Origin: Nitrospirae bacterium CG2_30_53_67
GTDB lineage: Bacteria > CG2-30-53-67
Reading direction: 5' to 3'
Length of the DNA stretch: 8,464 bases
Assembly: GCA_001873285.1 (NCBI GenBank)
Contig: MNYV01000002.1
Span: 1-8,464, forward strand
In this document: one piece after another, positions 4,503 to 8,408 of the stretch
How the letters are laid out: every line of letters begins with the position of its first letter
Numbering within the stretch: position 1 is the stretch's first letter
Notes under the pieces: model-generated
Told to the model about the DNA's origin: nothing
The model's database searches: none
The model's input: the letters and a program-made list of their open reading frames with translations, nothing else
Made by a program: the position numbers and the translations under genes

Positions 4503-5294
4503 ATGAAGATCATTGTCTGCGTCAAACAGGTGCCGGATACGGCGGCCCGGATCAGGATCGCGTCCAGCGGAAGAGAGATCGACACGGCGGATCTGACCTA
4601 TGTGGTCAATCCCTATGACGAATATGCCGTGGAAGAGGCCCTGCGAATCAAGGAGAAGGCCGGAGGGGAGGTCATTGTGATCTCAATGGGTCCGGACCGA
4701 GCGGCTGAGGCCGTCCGTACCGCACTCGCCATGGGGGCGGACCGGGGGATCCATCTCAAGGACGTCGCCTTCGAGGGATCCGATCCATACACAACGGCCA
4801 AACTCCTTGCCAAGGTCATCTCAGGCATGGAATATGATCTCATCCTCTGCGGCAAGCAGGCCGTGGATGATGATGCCTCATTCGTGGGGCCGGCCCTGGC
4901 GGAATTTCTGGGAATCCCGCAGGCCACGGTGATTACAAAACTCGATCTCTCCGAAGACCGGAAGAGCATCACCGTGGAACGGGAGGTGGAAGGGGGCAAA
5001 GAGGCGCTCGAGCTTCCCCTTCCTGCCCTGGTTACCGCGCAGAAGGGATTGAATGAACCGCGTTATGCATCACTCCCGGGAATCATGAAGGCCAAGAAGA
5101 AGGAGATCAAGGTGATGGATGCCGCGTCCGCCGGGATTTCTCCGGATGAGGTTGGAGAGAAGGGGGCAAAACAGAAACTTCTTTCTCTTTCACTGCCCGC
5201 CGAACGGAAAGGCGGCAAGGTCATTCCGGGTGAGCCTAAAGATGCGGTCAAGGAACTGGTCAGGCTTCTCAAGGAAGAGGCCAAGGCGCTGTAA
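4503..5294 (+). CDS. etfB: Electron transfer flavoprotein subunit beta
   Basis: Beta subunit of the soluble heterodimeric EtfAB, which accepts electrons from acyl-CoA dehydrogenases; in canonical ETF this subunit binds AMP. It has 263 residues, the usual length. Seen: N-terminal MKIIVCVKQVPDT, NPYDEYAVEEAL (36-47), the nucleotide-site stretch CGKQAVDDDASFVGP (116-130), and the ETF-beta signature from V158 to T178 (VEREVEGG...LPALVT) followed by NEPRYASLP. The D-D-D at 122-124 resembles canonical ETF; many electron-bifurcating ETFs have D-G-D there. I therefore lean towards a non-bifurcating type, which is inference. AGGAGG (4494-4499) lies 3 bases before the ATG. It is followed by an 85-bp gap, then the microprotein gene and etfA, instead of etfA directly. 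Confidence 0.96.
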   Translation: MKIIVCVKQVPDTAARIRIASSGREIDTADLTYVVNPYDEYAVEEALRIKEKAGGEVIVISMGPDRAAEAVRTALAMGADRGIHLKDVAFEGSDPYTTAKLLAKVISGMEYDLILCGKQAVDDDASFVGPALAEFLGIPQATVITKLDLSEDRKSITVEREVEGGKEALELPLPALVTAQKGLNEPRYASLPGIMKAKKKEIKVMDAASAGISPDEVGEKGAKQKLLSLSLPAERKGGKVIPGEPKDAVKELVRLLKEEAKAL

Positions 5295-5297
5295 AGA

Positions 5298-5322
5298 ACA
5301 GTAGATAGCAGACAGTAGATAG
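5298..5322. repeat. Short direct repeat between etfB and the microprotein gene
   Basis: ACAGTAGATAG occurs at 5298-5308 and again at 5312-5322, a period of 14 bases. It is followed by further purine-rich ACAGGG/ACAGAAGG-type units up to about 5356. No inverted symmetry of note is seen. Confidence 0.5.
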
Positions 5323-5379
5323 GGGACAGGGGGAAACCAACAGAAGGAAACAGGGATACAGGATAGAAGGAGAGGAGAT

Positions 5380-5568
5380 ATGGGAAAAAATGAAGGCACG
5401 ACCGGGGTCAGGGAGACGGAAGAGAACCAGGATCACTCTTTCTGGAAACGTTACGGGCCGGATATCCTGCTCGGCATCCTGATCATCTACGTGATCCTCC
5501 TCGGAATCGGGACCTATGCAGAACTGACTCATAATGAAAGCATTCTGAACTGGTGGATTTTCAAGTAG
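5380..5568 (+). CDS. 62-residue single-pass membrane microprotein between etfB and etfA
   Basis: I do not recognise a named family. The protein has a hydrophilic, acidic N-terminus (about 1-20), an aromatic and basic boundary FWKRYGPD (21-28), one strongly hydrophobic segment (about 28-46, ILLGILIIYVILLGIGTY), and a short tail ending in ILNWWIFK. Lys23 and Arg24 before the segment predict the N-terminus in the cytoplasm. It is very likely a real gene: AGGAGAGGAG (5368-5377) stands just before the ATG, the protein has a sensible membrane topology, and its stop codon overlaps the ribosome binding site of etfA, which implies co-translation. Position between the two ETF genes suggests a role in placing ETF or an acyl-CoA dehydrogenase near the membrane quinone oxidoreductase; this is inference from context only. 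Confidence 0.78.
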   Translation: MGKNEGTTGVRETEENQDHSFWKRYGPDILLGILIIYVILLGIGTYAELTHNESILNWWIFK

Positions 5569-5578: not shown

Positions 5579-6562
5579 ATGAGCGGGGTCATGGTCATCG
5601 GCGAAATCAAGGACGGGAAGGTCAAGAAAGTCTCGTTTGAGGCCGTCTCAGCCGGCCGGCGCCTCGGCGATCAGACAGGCCAAGAACTCTCCGTGGTCCT
5701 GGCCGGGAGCGGACTCGATGCGGTTGCTTCCGAGTTCGGAAAATACGGGGCGGACCGGGTCATCCTCCTGGAGGATCCAAGGCTCACGCCGTATTCCACG
5801 GATGGGTATGTTTCAGCCCTGTCAGGTCTCATCCAGGAGAGAAAGCCTGCCATCCTCCTGATGGGAAATTCGATTCTGGCCAGGGACCTCGCCCCCCGTC
5901 TCGCCGCCCGCCTGGGGACCGGGCTCTTGGCCGACTGTACGGAGATCGGCTTGGAAAATGAAACCCTCACGGCTCTCCGGCCCGTCTACGGCGCCAAGGC
6001 TGTTGCAAAGGTGCAGGCCGGAGGCGAGTCACCGCAGTTTGCAACGATCCGGCCCAATGTCGTTTCCCTCATTGAATTGAATCCGCCGAGAAGCGCCGTA
6101 GCGCAAAAAGTGGTCCCGCAGGTCGGCGGCATCAGAACGAAAGTGAAGGAAGTGATTCATGAAAAGCAGGGGAAGGTTGATCTGACCGAGGCCGAAGTGA
6201 TTGTCTCCGGAGGGCGGGGGATGAAGAATGCCGAAAACTTCAAGATCCTCGAAACGCTCGCCGGGGTTTTGGGCGGCGCCGTGGGGGCATCCAGGGTGGC
6301 CGTGGATTCGGGCTGGCGGCCCCATAGCGATCAGGTCGGTCAGACCGGAAAGGTCGTCAACCCCAAGCTCTATATCGCCTGCGGGATATCGGGGGCCGTG
6401 CAGCATCTGGCCGGCATGGGGACATCCCGCACCATTGTCGCCGTCAACTCCGATCCCGGTGCGCCGATCTTTCAGAAGGCTGATTACGGCATCGTCGGAG
6501 ATCTTTTTACCATTGTTCCGCTTCTGACTGAGGAGCTGAAAAAAGTGCTGGGTCATGAATAA
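5579..6562 (+). CDS. etfA: Electron transfer flavoprotein subunit alpha
   Basis: Alpha subunit of EtfAB, carrying the FAD that shuttles electrons from acyl-CoA dehydrogenases towards a membrane ETF:quinone oxidoreductase or another acceptor. It has 327 residues, so it is the short form without an added ferredoxin domain. The N-terminal domain covers about 1-190. The C-terminal FAD domain shows SGGRG (210-214), GASRVAVDSGWRP (236-248), QVGQTGKVVNP (252-262) and the full ETF-alpha signature from L264 to N290 (LYIACGISGAVQH...IVAVN), then SDPGAPIF. The start is fixed by GGGAGGA at 5568-5574. It lies 10 bases after the microprotein and is almost certainly in one transcript with it. No key residue appears to be missing. 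Confidence 0.97.
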   Translation: MSGVMVIGEIKDGKVKKVSFEAVSAGRRLGDQTGQELSVVLAGSGLDAVASEFGKYGADRVILLEDPRLTPYSTDGYVSALSGLIQERKPAILLMGNSILARDLAPRLAARLGTGLLADCTEIGLENETLTALRPVYGAKAVAKVQAGGESPQFATIRPNVVSLIELNPPRSAVAQKVVPQVGGIRTKVKEVIHEKQGKVDLTEAEVIVSGGRGMKNAENFKILETLAGVLGGAVGASRVAVDSGWRPHSDQVGQTGKVVNPKLYIACGISGAVQHLAGMGTSRTIVAVNSDPGAPIFQKADYGIVGDLFTIVPLLTEELKKVLGHE

Positions 6563-6617: not shown

Positions 6618-8408
6618 ATGAACGACACACTTCATTCACGTTTTCAAAAATGCGTGGACCAGTACAGGGACAAAACCGCCCTCATGTACAAGATCATGGG
6701 GCGCTACCAGACGATCACCTGGAGGGAGTTCGGGGAATCGGTATGCCGTTTCGCCCTCGGCCTGTCCACGATCGGCGTAAAAAAAAGGGACCGCGTGGCC
6801 CTCTTGTCCGAGAACAGACCTGGGTGGCCCATCTCCGATCTCGCGATCCTTTCAGAAGGGGCGGTCACGGTTCCCATCTATCCGACCAGCACCCCCAAAC
6901 AGATTGCCTATATCCTGAACAACTCCGAGAGCAAAGTGGTGATTGTCTCGACCGGAGAACAGCTTCAGAAACTCAAGGCCGTGTTTGATGACCTGTCGTA
7001 TCTTGAAAAAATCGTGGTCATGGATCGTTTAGAGGATACGGGCGTCATGCAATTTGAAAATCTTTTGGAGAAAGGGAAAGAACTCTTCCTTGCTCAACCC
7101 GGCCTCTATGACGAGCATACACAGAGGACCGGTCCTATGGATACGGCCACGATTATCTATACCTCAGGAACCACCGGCGAACCCAAGGGGGTGATGCTGA
7201 CGCATGAAAATATTCTTTTTAACTGCGATGCGGCGGACTGCGTGGTCCCGGTATCGGATGAAGACACCTGCCTCTCCTTCCTCCCATTAAGCCACGTCTT
7301 CGAAAGGACCGTCGGACAGTTCTTTATGATCTTCCACGGCATAACCATCGCCTATGCCGAAGGGATTGACAAGGTGGCCGATAACATGGAAGAGGTTCGC
7401 CCAACGCTTATGATCTCGGTTCCAAGGCTCTTTGAGAAGATGTATGCACGGGTTCTGGAGAAGGTGCATCAAGGCCCGAAGATCCGCCGGAAGATCTTTT
7501 TCTGGGGAATCCATGTTGGAAAGAGGCTGGCTCCTTATCGTTTGCAGGGGGATAGAGGCCCCTCTTTACTCCGTCTGCGTTATGCCGTTGCGGACCACCT
7601 GGTGTTCAAGAAGATCAAAGAGAGGCTGGGAGGCCGGCTGCGGTATTTTGTCTCCGGTGGGGCGCCGCTCTCAAAAGAGATTGCAGAGTTTTTTTATGCC
7701 GCAGGCGTGACCATTGTGGAAGGATACGGTTTGACCGAAAGTTCACCGGTGATCTCGGCCAACCGGCATGATCAGATCAGGTTCGGAACTATTGGAAAAC
7801 CCCTTCCCGGTGTCGAGGTCAGGATCAGCGAGGATGGTGAAATCCTGACACGCAGTCCTTCGGTCATGAAAGGGTATTTCAAAAACGAGGAAGCGACACG
7901 CGAGGCCGTTGATGCAGACGGGTGGCTGCATACAGGGGACGTCGGGATGATGGATGAGGAAGGTTTCATCACGATCACAGACCGGAAGAAGGATATCATC
8001 ATCACGTCCGGCGGCAAGAATGTCGCTCCGCAGAATATCGAAAACCTCCTGATATCGGACAAGTACATCAGTCAGGTCATGGTCTACGGTGACGGGAGGA
8101 AATACCTCACGGGACTTGTGGCGCCGGACTTCAACATCCTGAGCGAGTATTGGGGCGCCCGTGGAGTTGCGTTCAATACTCATCAGGAGATGATCCATGA
8201 TCTTAGGATTTACGATTTCCTCCTCGATCGGATTCAAGAGAAGATGAAAGACATGGCCGGCTTTGAGCAGCTCAAGAAGATTGCACTCCTCGACCATGAA
8301 CTCAGCCAGGAGAACGGCGAACTCACCCCCACCATGAAGCTCCGAAGAAAGATCATCACGCGGAAATATTTTGACCTGCTGGACAGCCTGTACGAAAAAG
8401 AATTCTGA
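6618..8408 (+). CDS. fadD: Long-chain fatty-acid-CoA ligase (AMP-forming acyl-CoA synthetase)
   Basis: Activates a fatty acid with ATP and CoA, giving acyl-CoA, AMP and pyrophosphate; this is the entry step for the dehydrogenases in the window. From the ATG at 6618 it has 596 residues, the usual size for the FadD15-like long-chain group. Motifs of the ANL superfamily, numbered from that ATG: P-loop YTSGTTGEPKG (181-191), GYGLTESSP (369-377), DGWLHTGD (434-441) with the ribose-binding Asp441, the hinge DRKKDIIITSGGKNVAP (455-471), and the C-terminal catalytic lysine K574 in LTPTMKLRRK. An alternative TTG start at 6591 would add 9 residues but lies inside the AT-rich repeat. The ribosome binding site is weak for either start. 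It sits 55 bases after etfA on the same strand, probably the same operon. Long-chain specificity is a family-based inference. fadD is used here in the broad sense. Confidence 0.93.
   Translation: MNDTLHSRFQKCVDQYRDKTALMYKIMGRYQTITWREFGESVCRFALGLSTIGVKKRDRVALLSENRPGWPISDLAILSEGAVTVPIYPTSTPKQIAYILNNSESKVVIVSTGEQLQKLKAVFDDLSYLEKIVVMDRLEDTGVMQFENLLEKGKELFLAQPGLYDEHTQRTGPMDTATIIYTSGTTGEPKGVMLTHENILFNCDAADCVVPVSDEDTCLSFLPLSHVFERTVGQFFMIFHGITIAYAEGIDKVADNMEEVRPTLMISVPRLFEKMYARVLEKVHQGPKIRRKIFFWGIHVGKRLAPYRLQGDRGPSLLRLRYAVADHLVFKKIKERLGGRLRYFVSGGAPLSKEIAEFFYAAGVTIVEGYGLTESSPVISANRHDQIRFGTIGKPLPGVEVRISEDGEILTRSPSVMKGYFKNEEATREAVDADGWLHTGDVGMMDEEGFITITDRKKDIIITSGGKNVAPQNIENLLISDKYISQVMVYGDGRKYLTGLVAPDFNILSEYWGARGVAFNTHQEMIHDLRIYDFLLDRIQEKMKDMAGFEQLKKIALLDHELSQENGELTPTMKLRRKIITRKYFDLLDSLYEKEF

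Follow-up and report, generated by a model that had tools for sequence, protein, structure and literature searches.

A conserved single-helix microprotein encoded between etfB and etfA: a family probably not dedicated to electron transfer flavoprotein

The window analysed here, which is the whole 8,464-base contig, carries a beta-oxidation cluster composed of part of a 3-hydroxyacyl-CoA dehydrogenase gene, two acyl-CoA dehydrogenase genes, etfB, an open reading frame (ORF) for a 62-residue microprotein, etfA, and a fatty acid-CoA ligase gene (Table 1). CG2-30-53-67 is used in the literature as a candidate phylum name (PMC11406059). The locus raises the question of whether the ORF between the two genes of electron transfer flavoprotein (ETF) is a real gene and, if so, whether its product serves ETF, as was proposed in the initial annotation, which regarded it as a plausible docking or assembly factor. 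The ligase ORF was called mechanically from TTG 6591, and the ATG given in the table is the likelier start.

Table 1. Features of the etfB-etfA region in the window
Feature	Position	Strand	Basis
etfB, electron transfer flavoprotein beta subunit	4503..5294	+	PF01012, E=1.4e-50
Ribosome binding site AAGGAGAGGAG, purine-rich	5367..5377	+	sequence; conserved in sister genome G001
Microprotein gene	5380..5568	+	ORF, ATG start, 62 aa, stop TAG 5566-5568; homologs and profile; dN/dS
N-terminal part, residues 1-28, predicted cytosolic	5380..5463	+	alignments; charge bias
Transmembrane helix ILLGILIIYVILLGIGTYA, residues 29-47	5464..5520	+	hydropathy; AlphaFold2; invariant columns
Conserved tail ELTHNESILNWWIFK, residues 48-62, predicted outside the inner membrane	5521..5565	+	alignment; positive-inside charge bias
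etfA, electron transfer flavoprotein alpha subunit	5579..6562	+	PF01012 and PF00766
Long-chain fatty acid-CoA ligase, after etfA	6620..8408	+	NCBIfam FadD-type ligases

Judged from sequence comparison, the ORF is a real gene under purifying selection. The decisive evidence, above the shuffling statistics given below, is its conservation. Within the window's family, comparison with the sister genome gave a dN/dS of 0.28, and the remaining computable pairs gave 0.05-0.20. In addition, the 15 nt upstream of the ATG are identical in the window's genome and the sister genome, and the spacer farther upstream has diverged. The initial annotation had described a protein with one membrane segment, the tail ILNWWIFK, and a strong ribosome binding site, and these features were all confirmed: the purine-rich site lies just upstream of the ATG, and a single hydrophobic segment, averaging 2.5 in hydropathy, covers residues 29-47. 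The stop codon had been thought to overlap etfA, but a gap of 10 nt actually separates the two. The spacer between etfB and the microprotein gene (window 5295-5379; also locus L005, upstream of the microprotein) varies from 71 to 283 nt in length across the family and contains short repeats of the GACAG / GGAAGAC type.

No family in Pfam or NCBIfam matched the microprotein above the cut-off, and a PDB sequence search found no match to any solved chain, in agreement with its earlier description as an unrecognised protein; scans for Rfam families and for promoters were unproductive. By the evidence of the libraries searched, the microprotein is a member of an undescribed family. Three family profiles were used: A1 (from the nine first homologs), A2 (from a closer set), and A3. 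The signature family was defined by A1 and A3, and the A2 search of the genome contigs found five loci. Among 291 relatives of genome G012, the family was found by profile in 60, of which the few weakest matches are remote or doubtful; this second lineage is probably Nitrospinota. In a domain-wide sample, strong profile matches were found in seven families (f1, f7, f44, f59, f75, f117, and f178).

The window microprotein displays the family signature, Y..LL.(I/L)GT..E on a single helix, followed by a tail of the form IL..(W/P)(I/L)F(K/R). The consensus of the second lineage is about KYK.EIGL..L.LYV.LLGLGT.GE..E.EWILDLP(L/I)FRPPGKY, in which the tail reads about E(I/V/L)...EWILDLP(I/L)FRPPGKY. 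Residues 20-53 of the microprotein also resemble the start of the YfgM-type N-terminal anchor (Pfam TPR_21, PF09976). Five of 28 members matched this profile weakly (best E=0.0015), over positions 2-35 of 193 only, and the window protein scored 16.7 bits against the curated cut-off of 25.5. YfgM carries a periplasmic TPR domain, whereas the microprotein has none. Identity with PF09976 or with NF046005 was rejected; both matches fall short of the cut-off and resemble a generic membrane anchor.

Three further observations concern the limits of the family. Loci L084-L092, from other phyla, encode shorter and remote single-helix proteins of 38-47 aa with the pattern KKYKAEI.L..L.IYV.ILG.AT..E, which adjoin a CooC-like ATPase (L088, L089, and L091), gyrB (L086 and L092), or a SurA/PpiD-like protein (L087); they possibly form one superfamily with the microprotein. 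The f117 members (L077, L080, and L082) possess a long basic (KRRR) N-terminal extension and share a neighbourhood of uncharacterised proteins. In G173 (L130:13684-13855), two overlapping frames take the place of the single microprotein frame, owing to a frameshift or an assembly error.

The conservation is concentrated in the helix and the tail. The N-terminal part is variable in sequence and in length (about 10 to 90 residues in the family), except for a basic/aromatic patch beside the helix (FWKRYG in the window). In 28 diverse members, Y37, L41, G44, T45, and I55 are invariant and E48 is nearly so. The conservation moment over residues 28-50 was significant at 100 degrees (permutation p=0.0009), where it also peaked, and the conserved positions L34, Y37, L41, G44/T45, and E48 make up one face of the helix. 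This helical period of conservation argues that the face would meet a partner helix rather than lipid. The AlphaFold2 model consists of one helix (residues 20-50) and a short helical turn in the tail (mean pLDDT 74.5; 94 for residues 31-40). In 45 sequences, lysine and arginine together averaged 3.1 residues N-terminal to the helix and 1.1 C-terminal to it. With basic residues thus prevailing at the N-terminal end, and acidic ones at the other, on average, an N-in/C-out topology is likely, as judged from this charge bias. The microprotein shares with CydX and KdpF, small single-helix accessory subunits of membrane enzymes, its size, single helix, conserved face, and variable ends, and its conserved face is compatible with an accessory subunit of this type.

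If the product serves ETF, it could be an accessory peptide that tethers EtfAB, or a complex of EtfAB with acyl-CoA dehydrogenases, to the membrane near the quinone oxidoreductase or aids its assembly. Genomic positions of the gene support this idea, and the microprotein recurs between etfB and etfA in both the window's family and the second, distant lineage. Homologs occupy this place in all five window-family genomes with an intact locus (G000-G004). A sixth genome, G005, was rejected as a non-carrier; the absence is apparent only, with etfB lying 84 nt from the contig end. In the second lineage, the gene adjoins etfB or etfA in 42 of 48 mapped genomes; a genome was counted if etfB directly precedes the microprotein gene or etfA directly follows it. 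By family, the counts were 5/5 for f1, the window's family, and, in the second lineage, 32/32 for f7, 3/3 for f93, 1/1 for f94, 3/4 for f95, 1/1 for f97, 2/2 for f99, 0/2 for f96, and 0/3 for f100. In f99 (L054 and L055), counted here as etf-adjacent, a gene for an FAD-dependent oxidoreductase (PF01266) is located between etfB and the microprotein gene. The microprotein stays with etfB where etfA is found elsewhere (G143, G144, and G146 of f93/f94), and the copy in G269 lies within 5 kb of etfBA. An apparent EtfB-microprotein fusion in G153 was rejected: the long frame is not that of EtfB, and etfB ends just upstream.

The weight of these positions differs. Gene order within the second lineage is weak functional evidence, because the order etfA-gidB-parA-parB, whose functions are unrelated, is kept there about as well. 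The position shared between two distant lineages means more than order within one. A single clade for the two lineages was weakly rejected in the microprotein tree (AU p=0.02), which has few columns and long branches, although one clade was not rejected in the EtfBA tree (p=0.455). This is a weak sign, drawn from the trees, that the microprotein may have reached its place between etfB and etfA separately in the two lineages.

Elsewhere, the gene was etf-adjacent in none of nine cases across f44, f59, f75, f117, f178, and L017, and non-etf contexts were found in about eight groups. The microprotein gene follows LptF-LptG-PAP2 in G169, precedes Bax1-I in G161/G165, and lies beside NUDIX-YchF in G049. 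At L017, a fatty acid-CoA ligase gene homologous to that of the window is located directly 3' of it.

The distribution of the microprotein was compared with that of ETF by a search of 54 genomes for EtfA (PF00766). EtfA was present in 27 of 29 tested carriers and 10 of 15 non-carriers (p=0.036, in a hand-picked set), which favours a link to ETF. In contrast, G161 and G165, two carriers of one genus, gave no match to EtfA or to ETF-QO and no full-length match to EMO. Between these two genomes, 35 of 38 core residues are identical, and 34 of 56 third positions have changed, indicating saturated synonymous change. Because the core was kept despite this change, the microprotein is evidently constrained without ETF. 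Alternatively, the link to ETF may have been lost secondarily in this genus, through a switch to another partner. The converse was also found: G102, of the genus of the carrier G012, lacks the microprotein although its etfB-etfA pair is intact, the two genes being separated by a clean spacer of about 100 nt, and G150, G152, G154, and G155 have EtfA but no microprotein.

FixX, ETF-QO, and EMO (EtfD) are the known partners of ETF at the membrane and act in the ETF pathway of these genomes. They carry Fe-S clusters and/or flavin, whereas the window microprotein has neither cysteine nor a cofactor motif. Most members of the window's family, and also G164, have ETF-QO, which lies in the window's own genome (G000) at L199:1180-2871 on the minus strand; EMO was found in f7/f93/f94/f95, most of the second lineage, G012 included. 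The microprotein therefore goes with no single type of ETF dehydrogenase, and the idea of a subunit peculiar to ETF-QO, or one peculiar to EMO, was rejected, since the etf-linked gene occurs with either.

The link to ETF is thus real as gene order, and the functional link is putative. A dedicated docking role is unlikely, because the microprotein also occurs elsewhere and survives where ETF has been lost; the gene is not in the etf operon wherever it is present, nor is it absent where ETF is absent. Moreover, conservation would be expected on the cytosolic surface of a protein that docks a soluble flavoprotein of the cytosol, whereas the microprotein conserves its membrane face and the predicted outer tail. 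On balance, an accessory peptide of ETF in the wider sense seems to us a possible but rather doubtful explanation. Still less probable is a membrane peptide that arrived more than once between etfB and etfA and that tethers, or helps to assemble, the ETF respiratory branch as a new kind of subunit compatible with both ETF-QO and EMO.

A leader role, in which translation of the small ORF sets the ratio of EtfB to EtfA or the timing of their synthesis and the peptide itself matters little, would suit the place inside the operon, the strong ribosome binding site, and the short gap to etfA in the window, but selection on the amino acid sequence, the conservation of one helix face, and the many non-etf locations make it very improbable. 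A chance ORF in the intergenic spacer has practically no likelihood left and is already refuted by the conservation: ORFs of at least 62 codons that begin with ATG arose in 4.8% of shuffled spacers and are thus not rare by themselves, but none of 4,000 shuffles yielded one with a segment as hydrophobic as that of the microprotein, and the homologs in several lineages, dN/dS below 0.3, and invariant residues all argue against it.

We favour, with modest confidence, the view that the microproteins form an undescribed family of accessory proteins, each a single N-in/C-out helix, that would belong to a putative inner-membrane complex; in some lineages their gene has its place in the etf operon. 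The helix would enter the membrane from the cytosol, its conserved face would pack against a helix belonging to a multi-spanning membrane complex, and the short conserved tail would grip the outer side of that complex, in the manner proposed for small accessory subunits such as CydX and KdpF. The partner is probably neither ETF nor its quinone oxidoreductase, and direct contact with ETF would not be expected. Placement in the etf operon may reflect shared expression or inherited gene order. The etf position kept in two distant lineages counts against such an accessory protein, as does the persistence beside etfB where etfA is elsewhere.

The microprotein thus represents a conserved membrane family without an entry in the family libraries searched, occurring in several poorly studied lineages and, by inference, reaching Nitrospinota, the main marine nitrite oxidisers. 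If its partner were found, a known membrane complex might gain a further subunit. The case also illustrates how misleading conserved gene order can be, since the microprotein is retained without ETF despite a deep association with the ETF genes.

The survey also bears on the ETF pathway of Nitrospinota, for which the N. gracilis genome paper left a possible ETF:quinone reductase unidentified (PMC3578206). The EMO-carrying genomes of inferred Nitrospinota gave no ETF-QO match, and EMO is a sequence-based candidate for this reductase. The EMO loci of f7/f93-f95 (L142, L144, L146, and L148-L161) encode an EMO-like protein 37-42% identical to that at L135:7628-9631, which has a long N-terminal part followed by Fe-S and CCG domains.
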